IMG/VR virus record: IMGVR_UViG_3300037852_000207
Coordinates: 1 to 34,783 of that record
DNA: 34,783 nucleotides
Reading direction: 5' to 3' (one strand)
Origin: a virus
The position numbers and the translations under genes are program-made. A model generated the notes under the pieces. That model had not been told where the DNA came from. It did not search any database and worked only from the letters and a program-made list of their open reading frames with translations. How positions within the stretch are numbered: the stretch's first letter is position 1; every line of letters begins with the position of its first letter. Positions 19,075 through 30,563 of this stretch are shown here, piece after piece.

Positions 19075-19081
19075 AGTTTAT

Positions 19082-19132
19082 GTCCGCAGTGGCCTTTACC
19101 TCATCACTAATGGCCAATAATCTGCGGACGCC
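19082..19132 (+). ncRNA. RNA-like module 1 (minimal, 8 bp closing stem)
   Basis: GTCCGCAG (19082-19089) pairs perfectly with CTGCGGAC (19122-19129), enclosing a second stem TGGCC/GGCCA (19090-19094, 19112-19116). It is preceded by AGTTTAT and followed by GCC, like the other modules. The closing stem shares GT..GCAG with module 6 (20213). A transcript is not proven. The same bases can be read as a 40-codon frame, but without a good ribosome binding site. Confidence 0.55.
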
Positions 19133-19133
19133 T

Positions 19134-19238
19134 TTTATGGCCGACGATACTGGAGACTGGATTATAAAAACGGTCGCGCGCAAACGCATAAATTCCGTGT
19201 AATAAAAATCCTATGCACTCACGGGAAAATAGGCCACC
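19134..19238 (+). ncRNA. RNA-like module 2 (shares head and tail with module 4)
   Basis: The 17-base head TTTATGGCCGACGATAC (19134-19150) is repeated exactly at 19740-19756, and the tail GGGAAAATAnGCCACC (19223-19238) is repeated at 19792-19807. The middle differs from module 4. GGATT (19158-19162) can pair with AATCC, and ACGG with CCGT inside. It lies in the 5' region of the cspA-like gene, so it could act as a leader element. Function unknown. Confidence 0.5.
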
Positions 19239-19264
19239 CATTAATTTATTAAGGACGATTTAAA

Positions 19265-19477
19265 ATGAGAGCGCAAGGGAATGTTAAGTGGTTTGATAAT
19301 CAGAAAGGTTATGGATTTATCGCAGGCGATGACGGAAAAGATGTCTTTGTTCACTTCTCGGCTGTACGTGCCAAAGGCTTTCGTACACTGGATGAAGGAC
19401 AGCGAGTTGACTTCACTGTCACTCAAGGCAAAAAAGGTTTGCAAGCCGAAGATGTTGAAGTTATAAGTGAGCGTTAA
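19265..19477 (+). CDS. CspA-family cold-shock protein
   Basis: 70 aa, a single cold-shock domain. [20 protein letters not shown] followed by DVFVHFSAV matches RNP1 (KGYGFI) and RNP2 (VFVHFS), then [20 protein letters not shown]. It is of the usual length for the family. AAGGACGA lies before the ATG. These proteins bind single-stranded nucleic acid and melt RNA structure. Its place between structured RNA modules is suggestive: it could act as a chaperone for those RNAs, though that is inference. Confidence 0.96.
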
Positions 19478-19486
19478 TTAAAAAAT

Positions 19487-19552
19487 GGCAATCAGGATGT
19501 AACCTTGGCGAAAGGTACATTGAATGGCTGCGGGTCATTCAGATTGCCACCA
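19487..19552 (+). ncRNA. RNA-like module 3 (three-way junction ending ACCA)
   Basis: GGCAATC (19487-19493) pairs with GATTGCC (19542-19548), followed by ACCA. Inside are ATGT-(A)-ACCTT/AAGGT-ACAT (19497-19520) and GAATG/CATTC (19522-19526, 19536-19540) separated by one base from the closing stem. The 66-base element has acceptor-stem geometry of 7 bp plus ACCA but lacks a recognisable anticodon arm or canonical T-loop. The same acceptor sequence is used by module 5 at 19954. Confidence 0.6.
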
Positions 19553-19567
19553 ATTTAAGGTGAAGAT

Positions 19568-19735
19568 ATGAAGAAATTATTTTTATTAGGATTAGCTTTA
19601 ATCAGTTTTAATTGTTACGCAGAAGATACGAAAACTATTAATTTACCCACAGTCTGTAACGGCAAGCCGTGCCCTCGTTGTTGCCCACCATGGGAGCAAC
19701 CTGATCCTTGCTGTCAGAAGAAATTGTGTCATTAA
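19568..19735 (+). CDS. Small secreted Cys-rich protein
   Basis: 55 aa. MKKLFLLGLALISFNCYA is a clear signal peptide (cleavage predicted after Ala18; Cys16 is not in a standard lipobox). The mature part has VCNGKPCPRCCPPWEQPDPC and CQKKLCH, with seven Cys in about 36 residues, so disulfide pairs in the periplasm are likely. AAGGTGAAG lies before the ATG. No family recognised. It sits between two RNA-like modules. It might modify the host envelope or exclude superinfection; not shown. Confidence 0.68.
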   Translation: MKKLFLLGLALISFNCYAEDTKTINLPTVCNGKPCPRCCPPWEQPDPCCQKKLCH

Positions 19736-19739
19736 AAAG

Positions 19740-19808
19740 TTTATGGCCGACGATACCAGCATTAACTGGTTATAATGCTAGCATACCATCTGGGAAAATA
19801 AGCCACCA
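19740..19808 (+). ncRNA. RNA-like module 4 (shares head and tail with module 2)
   Basis: Head TTTATGGCCGACGATAC (19740-19756) and tail GGGAAAATAAGCCACCA (19792-19808) repeat module 2. Between them AGCATTA and TAATGCT form a 7 bp stem with loop ACTGGTTA. The end GCC-ACCA resembles an acceptor end (pairs with GGC at 19745-19747), although that closing stem is only 3 bp. It starts 4 bases past the preceding stop codon. Confidence 0.5.
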
Positions 19809-19814
19809 GTTTAT

Positions 19815-19907
19815 GGGGAGAGAAGGGATAAAGACCCTAGTAGTCGTCAAAGTAAGCGTACGATGAAATGATGATGGTCGGTAAAACTCGCGGCCTCTTC
19901 CCCTCCA
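19815..19907 (+). ncRNA. RNA-like module (acceptor-like stem, ends TCCA)
   Basis: GGGGAGA (19815-19821) pairs with TCTTCCCC (19896-19903, one bulged T). AGGG/CCCT (19824-19827, 19835-19838) makes a 4 bp arm close to the first stem, and GGTCG/CGGCC (19876-19880, 19891-19895) makes a 5 bp arm directly against the last stem. This is tRNA-like placement of D-like and T-like arms. It ends T-CCA and is followed at once by AGTTTATG. It starts just after the octamer that follows module 4. Confidence 0.5.
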
Positions 19908-19953
19908 GTTTATGTTATTAAGTTATTACAAAAAAATGTTGTTACAAGTTTAT

Positions 19954-20170
19954 GGCAATCGCAGCGCGGACAGTGACGCGCTTGGATATGTGTACGACAA
20001 GCTCGATACTCAAAGTAGAGAACAAATAGCAATATTTGGTGATTAACTCTATGCCGGACTATAAGGGGGTCTTAACGGCGCATTGTGGGGTTCGTACGGT
20101 AGCTATCATCCCGGTTATATCGATAGCAACTTACTGAGTAAGCAGGTGCAATTCCTGCCGATTGCCACCA
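19954..20170 (+). ncRNA. RNA-like module 5 (tRNA-like ends, 160-base insert)
   Basis: GGCAATCG/CGATTGCC closes 8 bp (19954-19961, 20159-20166), CA, then a 4 bp arm GCGC with loop GGACAGTGAC (19964-19981), and at the 3' side GCAGG-TGCAATT-CCTGC (20142-20158) directly against the closing stem, then ACCA. The T-arm-like loop matches the tRNA T-loop consensus at all but one position. The insert holds further stems, including CAAATA-GCAA-TATTTG (20023-20038) within TAGAG/CTCTA, GTACGA/TCGTAC (19992, 20092) and GCTATC/GATAGC (20102, 20122). Not a standard tRNA: no anticodon arm seen. Confidence 0.68.
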
Positions 20171-20182
20171 GATTTATAGTGA

Positions 20183-20200
20183 TTTAGAGCAACCTCTAAA
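20183..20200 (+). terminator. Hairpin with T-rich tail after module 5
   Basis: TTTAGAG (20183-20189), loop CAAC, CTCTAAA (20194-20200), then TTTATAGTTT. A 7 bp stem, AU-rich, followed by U's: a weak intrinsic terminator or processing site separating modules 5 and 6. Confidence 0.45.
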
Positions 20201-20212
20201 TTTATAGTTTAT

Positions 20213-20340
20213 GTTAGCAGCAGTGCGGACAGTGACGTACTCAATCTAACTTGAGGATGTAGAATGGGATATATATTTGCGCTTACTCAAGAAGCGTGAT
20301 TCAAAACCATAGCCGGTGCAATTCCGGCCTGCTAACACTT
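20213..20340 (+). ncRNA. RNA-like module 6 (same family as module 5)
   Basis: GTTAGCAG/CTGCTAAC closes 8 bp (20213-20220, 20329-20336), CA, GTGC-GGACAGTGAC-GTAC (20223-20240), and GCCGG-TGCAATT-CCGGC (20312-20328) directly against the closing stem, then ACTT. Both loops are identical to those of module 5 while the stems differ by compensating changes. The insert is 71 bases and includes CGCTT/AAGCG. It ends 16 bases before the next gene (ATG 20357), so it may also serve as its leader. Confidence 0.68.
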
Positions 20341-26236: not shown

Positions 26237-28636
26237 TTATCGTCCAAAAATGTGTGTCTGCCCCGGTTCTAAATGTGCCTCATCACCCATTGCCTGCCTG
26301 ATCATGGGTGAGATAATCGGCGTTGTCTGAATGGGAAAAACATAATTTGCAGCAGCCTTTAATTTTTTGGCTGCACGCGCCGGATCGCCTTCCGCCAATG
26401 CAAAGGGAACCGACATTGCATTGCCAATTAAACTGGTCGAAGGCGATCCCAATAAACTCCATACCATCGAACTATTCTGGTTTTTAGGATCAAGCATACC
26501 AGAGAAAATCGCAAGGCTTGGAGCAAGTATGGATAACAAATATTTTTCACGCTCCGGCACATTCATCTGATTATAATCAGGCATCGTCAGACCCTGACTG
26601 ATATTATGGAAATAGGTCGACATGACAGAAAGTGGAATGGTTCCCATCAGCATCGATGTAGCCCAGAGAATCTTTTGAGAAGCCGTGTCCGCGTCTTTAA
26701 ATCCTTTTATCAGTACACGATCAATATAAGCGAGGGTGTACATCTTGAAATGACCAAATAATCTTAATAACTCACCCGGCACTGTACCCGGATTTTTGCC
26801 ATGAAATACAAATGCCCTTTCAAATTCAGTCGGTGATAACACCGCATTTTCCGATGCGATCGTAAACATGGAATGGACTTTACGGTAGAGATCATCACGT
26901 ACTTCACTCAATGGCAATGATTTATCTGTATTGGCATAGTGCGCTCTGATTTCACTATCTGAAAGTGCATCAACATTTTCCGTGGTAAATAAACCTTGGG
27001 AATTTTTTTTCCTTAATAAATCCCATTCTTTTTCATCTAAAAATTTATTGACCCATTTCTGTAATGACGGGTCTAAATCAGAAAATGATTTACTGGAATT
27101 GTCCGCAACATGCTTTGCCATTAAGTGCATCATTCCAACTTTATTGCCACGGTCGAAGGCTTCAAGCATATTGTATTTAAAAAATTTCGTACTGATCTTT
27201 CCAAGTAAGTCCGTCGCATTATTTATTTCAGTCCAGCGACCCATGTAACCCAAATGTGAATCAACCTGTGTCTTGAATAATTTCGCAATCTTTCTTCTTT
27301 CTTCATTGCCAAATGTATCAAAGATATGCGTCATCTGATTTAACCACGCACGTGAATAATTGATTCCCATGCGTTGGGCAAATGATGCGATATATCCAAT
27401 ATCTGATATGGAATCGATTGCGATAAATGGAAGTCGTGCCATAGTCGAAATGGTGCGAATGTTTGCCATGAAATTTGTGAGTGTGGGTGATGTACTTGCC
27501 TTATCAAGACCCATGACAGCTTTAAAATAATTATCGGTATTTTGCCACCAGAGCGATCCTTTGGGGTCAGTCTCTTCCTGCACTTTTCTCAAATCGTTAT
27601 ACATCGTATAGGGATTATCACCCCACATTTTTGTACTGCCGATTTTGTTGGCTGACGCCTGAGCATCAGACATAAACATATTGAATAGATTTCCCTTACC
27701 ATATGTCTTGTTATACTCATAAAGCGATCGCAAATCTTTCCACTTGAAGAACATGCGTGACTTTTTAGCAACAGCATCACGATCATTAGCGACGACGGAC
27801 TTTGTAAAAATATTGCTTCGACCAGTCGTAATATTATCGAAGATACGATCGAGTATTTTGTTGGCCTCGGCTTCATCGAGATTGCCCTCAATGTCTACGG
27901 CTTTAGTCTTTGAAAATGTTTCATCCATATCAAGAAAAGGTTTAATAAAATTACGCCATGCAGTCTTATGGTTTTTTAAATCATATTTTTTAGATATCCT
28001 TTCAGCTGCGATTGTCCTTAAACTTTTTCCAGCATTGATAATCTTTTGTTGATCATGTACCGCACGGAACAATCTGTCTTCATTGATCTCTGAAAATTTC
28101 ATTGCACCGGATAAAACAATCTGAGCATTTCGATAAGTGAAATAATCTTTTAACTTATCAGCAATCTTTTTGCTGAATGGGTCTTTTACTTCCCTTCCAT
28201 CAAATGAATCAATAATTGTTTCATCAGAATTACCTGAACTGAAGTGTTCAACTTCTTCATGAGACAGATCATTCAGCACATAATTAACTATTTTTTCGTA
28301 CTCGGCTTTTTGTGCGGTTGAAATATTTTTTGAAAGATTTTTTCCACGCGCTGCAAGTAATCCGCGCACATCTAATTTTCCCTCACGGATTTCTTTTGCA
28401 TTACGATCAAACTTCATGACATTGTTTGCTTTGATCGTTGCATCTTCAAAAAATGATTTGAGTCTTTCATCATTAATTTCTTTCATTGCCTGATCAAACG
28501 CACGCATGTTTTGAAGATTGTCATAACTTTTCGCACGCAGGAAAACATCCTGAACATATTCTTCAAGCTCATCCTTGCTGAAATTTTTAAGCGCCTTGAA
28601 CGCTTCTTCAATACAATCCTGACTGATCCTAGCCAC
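26237..28636 (-). CDS. Large internal virion protein, C-terminal half (T7 gp16-like)
   Basis: 799 aa from a GTG at 28636, which has GGGAGGA 6 bases upstream; an earlier GTG at 28654 has none. Long and mostly helical, with RLPFIAIDSISDIGYIASFA, then NYSRAWLNQMTHIFD, and C-terminal FGHFKMYTLAYIDRVLIKGF and NYVFPIQTTPIISPMIRQAM. Such regions are seen in big ejection proteins that form a channel from virion into the cell. With the 644 aa gene it covers the size of T7 gp16 (1318 aa). No lytic transglycosylase motif was seen. Role is inferred from order and length. Confidence 0.72.
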   Translation of the reverse strand: MARISQDCIEEAFKALKNFSKDELEEYVQDVFLRAKSYDNLQNMRAFDQAMKEINDERLKSFFEDATIKANNVMKFDRNAKEIREGKLDVRGLLAARGKNLSKNISTAQKAEYEKIVNYVLNDLSHEEVEHFSSGNSDETIIDSFDGREVKDPFSKKIADKLKDYFTYRNAQIVLSGAMKFSEINEDRLFRAVHDQQKIINAGKSLRTIAAERISKKYDLKNHKTAWRNFIKPFLDMDETFSKTKAVDIEGNLDEAEANKILDRIFDNITTGRSNIFTKSVVANDRDAVAKKSRMFFKWKDLRSLYEYNKTYGKGNLFNMFMSDAQASANKIGSTKMWGDNPYTMYNDLRKVQEETDPKGSLWWQNTDNYFKAVMGLDKASTSPTLTNFMANIRTISTMARLPFIAIDSISDIGYIASFAQRMGINYSRAWLNQMTHIFDTFGNEERRKIAKLFKTQVDSHLGYMGRWTEINNATDLLGKISTKFFKYNMLEAFDRGNKVGMMHLMAKHVADNSSKSFSDLDPSLQKWVNKFLDEKEWDLLRKKNSQGLFTTENVDALSDSEIRAHYANTDKSLPLSEVRDDLYRKVHSMFTIASENAVLSPTEFERAFVFHGKNPGTVPGELLRLFGHFKMYTLAYIDRVLIKGFKDADTASQKILWATSMLMGTIPLSVMSTYFHNISQGLTMPDYNQMNVPEREKYLLSILAPSLAIFSGMLDPKNQNSSMVWSLLGSPSTSLIGNAMSVPFALAEGDPARAAKKLKAAANYVFPIQTTPIISPMIRQAMGDEAHLEPGQTHIFGR

Positions 28637-30563
28637 CAAGTCCTCCCATGACACAAGAGATTAAATTTTTAAAAATATTGGGTGACTCTTTAAATTCTTT
28701 GAAGCGTTCGAGTGACGCATTAAATTCATTCTTGGCTTCATCTGCCACGCTATTTTTAATCTGTGCTTCCTGATCTGACAAAATAGTATCGGAATCAGCC
28801 GGAACCGCCTGTTGTTCTCTTACAGCCTTTTCAACCTCAGCAATGGGTTCAACTTTGTTTAAGGTGCCTTCGATGCGGCGTCTTAAATAATCCATCACAT
28901 TTTCTGGCCTTGCGAGTTTCGGCATGTCAGAATCAGCTATTTTTAAAGTTTGATGCGCGAGGTCACGAAATGCAGTTTGACGATTATATTCATTCTCTAA
29001 ATGAACCCTATCGAGTAGAGTTCGCGCGTTATGCCAAACGTTCGATAGATCAAGTAATCGATGATATGCGTTACTCCGTTCCCAATTGGGAGACAGACCT
29101 TGATCTCCGACTAATATTTTTCTCAGTTGCTGTAGTTCTTCTCTCGGAGTTAGTATCTTCGGAGTCGCTTTCTCAAGCTCATCAATCCGACGAATAGTTT
29201 TTTTGTTGGGTTCCAAGCCCCAACGCTTCTCTGAATTGACCTTTGATTTAAGCTTCTTGATCTTGTTATTCATGCTGATCAACTTGCTCATATTCTCAGG
29301 CATAGTGATCGGTAAGTGTTTCAGATGTGACGGTTCAAAGTTAGCTTGTTTGACCATCTTGAATATTTCTTTCTGACTGAAAGGCAAATCGTTCTTTGCA
29401 CCTTTCTCTAAATGCTCATCCAGAATTTTATCTGCTTCAGCCAGTTTGGATGCCTTGTTATCGAGTTTATTATTAATAAAGTCTACATAACCCCGAACCC
29501 CGTCCAGCCACTTAGGGTCTTGTCGTATATAGTCCATTCGGTTATGTACAACAAAATCAGATAATGCTTTCTGATATTGCTCTGGTACGCCTCCCGCGAC
29601 CTGATCCGCTATCATGCCATGAAGTGTTGACACATCATTGGGTGACAGAATATCGAACATGGCTTCATTCGTGACGGTATTAGCGGTATGACCATTCTGA
29701 TTGATAATTTGAGAGGCACGATTTTTAAGATCATCCATCTTTGCCGTGTCTTCGGGATTGGCTTGGTGCGCCAGATAATCGTTATACCACTGATGTTCAT
29801 CCGGAGTGATGTGCCCTGCTGCCAGCGCTTTATCCAAAGTAGAAGGTTCAACCGGATCAGTTACATCACGACCAAGGCCACGATTAATTTTTCCACGAAG
29901 GACACCCCATGCAAAAGGCACACTTCCAATTGCCAATCCAAATGCACCCATTTCACCGGCTTCACGTGCAACACCACCCCATTCAATGTGGTTGGTGTCA
30001 GCTTTGTAATTATCAACGATACCTTGTGGAACACCAGCACCCGCAAACGTACCAAACGTATTGAATGCCTTGTCAGTTATCAATCCAAATGAAAGTGGTT
30101 TTTCAGCTCCTTCCTTTCCGACCATTTCAGGGATGTACTGGCCAATTGGCTTTGACACAATATCCTTGATGGGGGATCGCATAAATACGGATGCTGCATC
30201 AGGTGCAATACGTGAAGCACCTGTCGCTAATCCACGTGCAGCCAAACCACCGGCTTCACCAAATGCCCATGTCACAGGATTTAATCCAAAGCCGAGCATG
30301 TTTGATCCTTCAGATGCCAGCCACTGGCTTGTACTCATACCCGGTGTTTCATTCTGCAAGCGGATTGCATCAAAAGCGCTTAAAATGGCACGGCCTTCCG
30401 GTTTTTTGGAAAACTGACTATCCAGCATGTTTAATGCAACGATGGGTGTGGCAAATCCCATTGCAAGATTGTTGTAAACAGATTGCGATAAGGTTGGCTG
30501 CGTCAGAAGAGAATCAGCATAATATTCCTGTTGTGGTGCTACCTGATTACTGCGCGTTAGCAT
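28629..30563 (-). CDS. Internal virion protein, N-terminal half (T7 gp16-like)
   Basis: 644 aa. The N-terminal 230 residues are rich in Gly, Ala and Pro with hydrophobic stretches (NNLAMGFATPIVALNMLDSQ, LGFGLNPVTWAFGEAGGLAA), suggesting membrane insertion. The rest is helical and charged (about residues 360-620). The gene starts inside the end of the gp15-like gene and overlaps the next by 8 bases, which supports co-translation. T7 carries one large gene here; this genome has two. I found no transglycosylase motif. Confidence 0.7.
   Translation of the reverse strand: MLTRSNQVAPQQEYYADSLLTQPTLSQSVYNNLAMGFATPIVALNMLDSQFSKKPEGRAILSAFDAIRLQNETPGMSTSQWLASEGSNMLGFGLNPVTWAFGEAGGLAARGLATGASRIAPDAASVFMRSPIKDIVSKPIGQYIPEMVGKEGAEKPLSFGLITDKAFNTFGTFAGAGVPQGIVDNYKADTNHIEWGGVAREAGEMGAFGLAIGSVPFAWGVLRGKINRGLGRDVTDPVEPSTLDKALAAGHITPDEHQWYNDYLAHQANPEDTAKMDDLKNRASQIINQNGHTANTVTNEAMFDILSPNDVSTLHGMIADQVAGGVPEQYQKALSDFVVHNRMDYIRQDPKWLDGVRGYVDFINNKLDNKASKLAEADKILDEHLEKGAKNDLPFSQKEIFKMVKQANFEPSHLKHLPITMPENMSKLISMNNKIKKLKSKVNSEKRWGLEPNKKTIRRIDELEKATPKILTPREELQQLRKILVGDQGLSPNWERSNAYHRLLDLSNVWHNARTLLDRVHLENEYNRQTAFRDLAHQTLKIADSDMPKLARPENVMDYLRRRIEGTLNKVEPIAEVEKAVREQQAVPADSDTILSDQEAQIKNSVADEAKNEFNASLERFKEFKESPNIFKNLISCVMGGLGG

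Follow-up and report, generated by a model that had tools for sequence, protein, structure and literature searches.

Mimicry of transfer RNA (tRNA) is known from transfer-messenger RNA (tmRNA), from YrlA and from the tails of plant viruses. YrlA is a small modular RNA whose 5′ and 3′ ends pair into a stem and which has a domain that imitates tRNA in its acceptor, D and T arms (PMC8394870). GOLLD and ROOL are noncoding phage RNAs of unknown function that are often found near tRNA islands (PMC12286853). Here we describe type I, an RNA family represented by two modules in IMG/VR record IMGVR_UViG_3300037852_000207, the entire 34,783 bases of which were analyzed (the window). Its nearest counterparts, none of which fits, are the tRNA mimics YrlA and tmRNA and, among the phage RNAs found in tRNA islands, GOLLD and ROOL. 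Type I is apparently an undescribed family of phage RNAs that keeps the acceptor, D and T arms of tRNA and carries a variable insert in place of the anticodon arm. What appears to be new is that a family of tRNA mimics is spread over many phages unrelated to one another and offers a free insertion site where the anticodon arm would be. No description of such a phage family was found in the open-access literature, and one in a preprint or subscription journal is possible. There is a real chance that this tRNA-mimicking noncoding RNA deserves its own class.

Both modules are on the plus strand, flanked by a single-strand-binding-like gene on one side and small unknown genes on the other. The RNA body of copy 1 (19954-20166) consists of a closing stem (19954-19961/20159-20166), the linker CA (19962-19963), a D-like arm (19964-19968/19977-19981) with the loop GACAGTGA (19969-19976), a 160 nucleotide (nt) insert (19982-20141) and a T-like arm (20142-20146/20154-20158) with the loop TGCAATT (20147-20153), and is followed by ACCA (20167-20170). 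Copy 2, with a 124-nt body (20213-20336) followed by ACTT, has a closing stem (20213-20220/20329-20336) with CA after its 5′ strand, a D-like arm (20223-20227/20236-20240; loop 20228-20235), a 71-nt insert (20241-20311) and a T-like arm (20312-20316/20324-20328; loop 20317-20323). An earlier sequence-only reading had placed two structured modules here, and the location was right, but its ends at 20170 and 20340 each take in the next four bases beyond the RNA body. It was also right about the insert lengths and the stems. The closing stems, GGCAATCG/CGATTGCC and GTTAGCAG/CTGCTAAC, differ in sequence yet form 8/8 base pairs (bp) in each copy, and the T-like stems that abut them, GCAGG/CCTGC and GCCGG/CCGGC, form 5/5. 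The D-like stems are GCGCG/CGCGC and GTGCG/CGTAC, the latter with one G-T pair. This arm was predicted with identical loops, which are present, and with 4 bp and a 10-nt loop, which homologues replace with 5 bp and an 8-nt loop. The sequence GGACAGTGAC occurs in the window twice only, where 0.04 occurrences are expected. In RNA letters the possible elbow loops of copy 2 are GACAGUGA and UGCAAUU.

The first homologues (L009, L010, L004 and L005) were reached through relatives of the neighbouring Sak4 gene. They come from different phages and have different stem sequences. With pattern scans of viral contigs the count rose to 148 distinct type I RNAs. They come from 135 loci, almost all of them on uncultivated phage contigs. 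The family architecture is 8-2-5-loop-5-insert-5-7-5-8 with covarying stems, a 53-nt core plus insert. Standard pairs fill 98.6% of pair cells in the 138 unique cores, compared with 70.9% when the 3′ letters were dealt among sequences and 32-41% when partners were slid by one or two bases. 17/18 pairs vary yet stay paired. The exception is the invariant T-arm pair G53-C61, which is invariant in tRNA too. The compensation first seen between the two copies is thus upheld across the 138 cores.

Since the 138-core set was partly selected by pairing, two less biased tests were added. When 77 loci were picked by the 18-nt D-arm alone, 64 had, within 300 nt, 12 or more of the 13 pairs that make up the closing stem and T-arm, and 48 had all 13; in shuffled stretches 8/385 reached at least 12 and none reached 13. 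Each of the 48 perfect members shows a T[GT][CT][AG]A-type loop with a closing G-C pair, even though the search made no use of the loop. A scan with the T-loop pattern and geometry fixed and the D-loop left open gave 160 matches in 5.1 megabases, a number that is no measure of abundance because the scanned loci had been gathered with the family in mind. The reversed sequence gave none, indicating that the scan is specific. D-loop variants recovered in this way are GACAGCGA, GTTTAGTTGA, GTTTAGGGA and CACGGTGA. Both the D- and T-loop are nearly invariant across type I. Clearly, the homologues have paired stems and conserved loops, bearing out strongly the proposal of a conserved RNA structure, and we regard type I as a structured RNA family with near certainty. 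Three relatives (L278:7294, L279:4758 and L296, minus strand) have an apparent insertion of a few to about 60 nt in the T-loop between TG and AATT.

A similarity search of 50,697 phage records found nothing of type I, even when seven D-arm variants were tried, and so no isolated phage with a type I RNA. Exact patterns were sought in 85,000 bacterial and archaeal genomes, where one was absent and a 20-mer gave six matches. Four of these are on contigs of metagenome-assembled genomes, and L245 carries portal and terminase genes. L242 is GC-rich and fits type I more poorly. L240 and L241 were rejected as they are without the structure.

The T-arm stands directly against the closing stem, and positions G53, T54, C56, R57, A58 and C61 follow the tRNA rule. 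Rare members have the canonical T-loops TTCAATT, TTCGACT or TTCGAAT. An 8-bp acceptor with a 5-bp T stem is the geometry of bacterial tRNA-Sec. Type I shares these stems, the T-loop signature and a place in tRNA arrays with tRNA-Sec and tRNA (RF01852, RF00005), but has no anticodon arm at the tRNA position and has G55 for T55. A tRNA gene lies within 500 nt of 20/98 members where 4 are expected, a fivefold excess; all 20 are on the same strand and nine are within 25 nt. At L005, L090 and L091 tRNAs alternate with type I RNAs and share the linker AGTTTATG. An open reading frame (ORF) of at least 100 amino acids covers 20/86 modules compared with 69% of random places, so the modules are mostly intergenic and appear to be noncoding. 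The flanks U-1, G+1 and A73, which suit bacterial ribonuclease P (RNase P), are present in 104, 102 and 79 of the 148 RNAs, respectively, and U-1 and A73 occur together in 65/148 (about 11% expected). Occasionally NCCA is encoded as well (9/98 type I members). These results suggest that type I very probably has a tRNA-like elbow, and that it is likely to undergo tRNA-type processing.

In an Rfam 15 cmscan (4227 families) nothing matched at the gathering score, and nothing was found for the modules at permissive thresholds either. Neither ARAGORN nor the Rfam tRNA model called a cloverleaf with an anticodon arm at either module. The description of the modules as unlike tRNA and superficially like tmRNA is therefore supported, but the T-arm signature, the canonical loops of rare members and the tRNA neighbours take the tRNA likeness further than the sequence-only reading claimed. 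The ends of YrlA (bacterial Y RNA, RF02553) form a long Rsr-binding stem, whereas those of type I form an 8-bp acceptor-like stem. No type I RNA matched RF02553 above the gathering score, nor did anything in the window. A search for a Ro/Rsr TROVE protein in 29 phage records, the window and 28 contigs of fetched loci found none. Identity with Ro/YrlA was rejected on these grounds. GOLLD and ROOL resemble type I as noncoding phage RNAs of unknown function near tRNA genes, but they are large (many GOLLD exceed 800 nt) and cage-forming, while type I has a 53-nt core with an insert of median 85 nt and matches neither model.

Our leading but tentative interpretation is that type I RNAs are non-decoding phage tRNA mimics that are processed like tRNA and may serve as decoys. 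RNase P would cut a long array transcript between UUUAU and G, ribonuclease E would cleave the UUUA linkers, and the 3′ ends would be trimmed or receive CCA, yielding free, stable tRNA-like RNAs. With no anticodon arm at the tRNA position these RNAs may not decode. They might instead bind host proteins that recognize the tRNA elbow and acceptor, their most likely role being that of decoys for tRNA-cleaving defences or tRNA-handling enzymes, and the insert might be the variable part fitted to a local target. Phage-encoded tRNAs are used to counter defences that cleave tRNA (PMC13096335). Taken alone, the decoy role is a more doubtful proposal. The grounds for it are the missing anticodon arm, the near-invariant elbow loops, the occurrence of the RNA almost only in phage contigs and the known contest over tRNA between phages and bacterial defences. 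In view of this contest, type I is a ready candidate for RNA-based counter-defence.

Several observations weigh against this interpretation. T-loop position 55 is mostly G in type I, not T, and GACAGTGA departs from the canonical D-loop of tRNA. Only a minority of type I RNAs encode CCA. The Rfam tRNA, tRNA-Sec and tmRNA models stay below threshold on type I RNAs, the best score, a weak and isolated match to tRNA-Sec at L299, being 26.2 bits (gathering 47). The decoy step is conjectural, as the analysis linked type I to no named defence system or host protein. In favour of the tRNA likeness, true phage tRNAs with the identical T-loop TGCAATT (G55) were seen on other contigs, namely Gly, Arg, Tyr and Ala (L314, L316, L403 and L451). 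The idea that phage tRNAs generally have G55 was rejected because these loci had been selected by that T-loop. On contigs not selected by the T-arm, T55 is present in 43/43 readable true tRNAs, so G55 is a feature of the mimic and not of these phages generally.

The main alternative is a natural tRNA scaffold, in which the constant frame stabilizes and processes the RNA while the insert does the work as a regulatory or antisense RNA, an aptamer or a protein-binding domain that differs between phages. Inserts are 29-332 nt long (median 85) and nearly all mutually unrelated. 88/98 are non-redundant and share no common motif or hairpin, as a scaffold would allow, and 146/148 finish in A right before the T-stem. 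They are partly structured: they fold slightly better than shuffles (z-score -0.64 +/- 0.13), and a helix ending near the T-arm is enriched. In the related inserts of L090, L119 and L369 such a helix has compensating changes in a pseudoknot-like arrangement, which is suggestive only; other insert clusters were too loose to use. A pseudoknot is not claimed as a general feature of type I, the excess being modest (22% vs 9% of shuffles at the chosen score). The second module type described below, type II, is alike in having constant ends and a variable middle, and the insert of its member L096 looks like a tRNA. On the other hand, antisense matches of the insert to its own locus are not in excess (9.56 observed vs 9.64 shuffled), and the near-invariant D and T loops suggest recognition of the frame itself. 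We consider the scaffold possible but rather unlikely. Type I also offers a tRNA scaffold, already tested in nature, on which RNA inserts could be expressed. The type I inserts of L152 and L202 (minus strand) apparently hold a tRNA-like element with the T-arm GTTGG-TTCGACT-CCAAC.

A ribosome-directed relative of tmRNA, with a tRNA-like domain and an inserted domain that enter stalled or initiating ribosomes, is improbable. tmRNA (RF00023) has the same topology of acceptor, D part, insert with possible pseudoknots and T-arm, and the G010 variant (D-loop CACGGTGA, T-loop TTCGACT) matches the tmRNA model weakly at 18.7 bits. However, the type I D-arm is a true closed 5-bp hairpin unlike that of tmRNA, and the inserts are much shorter and mutually unrelated, the shortest (29-40 nt) leaving no space for a tag reading frame. 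Neither a tmRNA model match nor a tag reading frame was found in the window. The 58.5-kilobase type I contig of phage G029 also encodes a real tmRNA (L517, G029:C1:27317-27593; 61.9 bits, over the cut-off) with an apparent tag ending AKSFAVAA, adjoining a tRNA-Gln; this would favour the tmRNA relative. T-loop hairpins are found in riboswitches as well. A cis-acting element that controls the gene after it, such as a riboswitch or attenuator whose T-loop hairpin is like L4 of the cobalamin riboswitch, would suit the intergenic position but was rejected as highly improbable, given the tandem arrays with tRNAs, the lack of any riboswitch match among the Rfam families and the lack of a conserved gene downstream of type I modules (the 106 genes found there belong to 80 families, and 28 further cases have their next gene on the opposite strand).

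In the window at least seven modules, including both type I copies, form one array (19075-20340). The linker AGTTTATG occurs exactly six times in the window, always inside the array and on the plus strand (starts 19075, 19738, 19808, 19907, 19947 and 20206; span 19075-20213). Its final G is usually base 1 of the following module, and the linkers are probably single-stranded processing spacers. At least five further modules, all on the plus strand, have closing stems beside AGTTTATG-type or similar linkers. Module A (19082-19129) has the 8-bp closing stem GTCCGCAG/CTGCGGAC right after AGTTTAT and is followed by GCCT. A type II module (19139-19235) reads GGCC-GACGATA ... GAAAATA-GGCC, then ACCC. 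Module D (19487-19548), read directly from the sequence, has a 7-bp acceptor-like stem, GGCAATC/GATTGCC, two hairpins and ACCA at 19549-19552. A slightly degenerate type II module (19745-19804; GGCC/AGCC) contains GACGATA-CCAG ... CTGG-GAAAATA and ends in ACCA (19805-19808). Module G (19815-19903), again right after AGTTTAT, is closed by GGGGAGAG with CTCTTCCCC and followed by TCCA. NCCA is encoded in 4/7 array modules, counting both type I copies.

Type II is a second covarying RNA family. Its modules combine a 4-bp covarying stem and the fixed internal loop GACGATA/GAAAATA with a second stem and an insert that are both variable. The 4-bp stem was found as GGCC/GGCC, GCCC/GGGC, GGTC/GACC, GTCC/GGAC, GGGC/GCCC and ATCC/GGAT. 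Apart from the window, members are at L004, L006, L096, L098, L114, L119, L132, L233 and other loci. NCCA follows 16/23 examples, a fraction that leans high because NCC or a TTTA leader was one listing criterion. Phage tRNA clusters thus hold structured RNAs that are missed by present annotation. More speculatively, type I, type II and others could together form a whole class of tRNA look-alikes in environmental phages. These RNAs would not decode, would be made from shared arrays by host tRNA-processing enzymes and would serve as a general RNA-based tool of counter-defence or takeover, with inserts exchangeable per host target.

The source phage is podovirus-like. Besides a head-tail adaptor, a major head protein and a terminase, it encodes an endolysin, a Sak4-like annealing protein and a Gam-like protein. 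Terminase and portal share only 22-35% identity with their counterparts in described phages, among others of Pelagibacter and Vibrio. ARAGORN called a tRNA-Pro (agg) at 28580-28662 on the minus strand; it overlaps long ORFs on the same strand and is probably a false call. Within the RNA array is a phage cold-shock protein gene (19265-19477), in the region of which there is a weak likeness to the cspA thermoregulator (35.7 bits vs gathering 78). A small ORF between RNA modules D and F (19568-19735) encodes a short cysteine-rich protein with a signal-peptide-like start. Outside the window, a possible third module type was seen at L092:457-605 and L006:8729-8843 (approximate ends). Its 5′ part resembles GGAGCTCGAAAAG, and a hairpin like a T-arm, with the loop TGAAAAT or CGAAAAT, adjoins or lies close to a closing stem of 6-7 bp, after which comes ACC.
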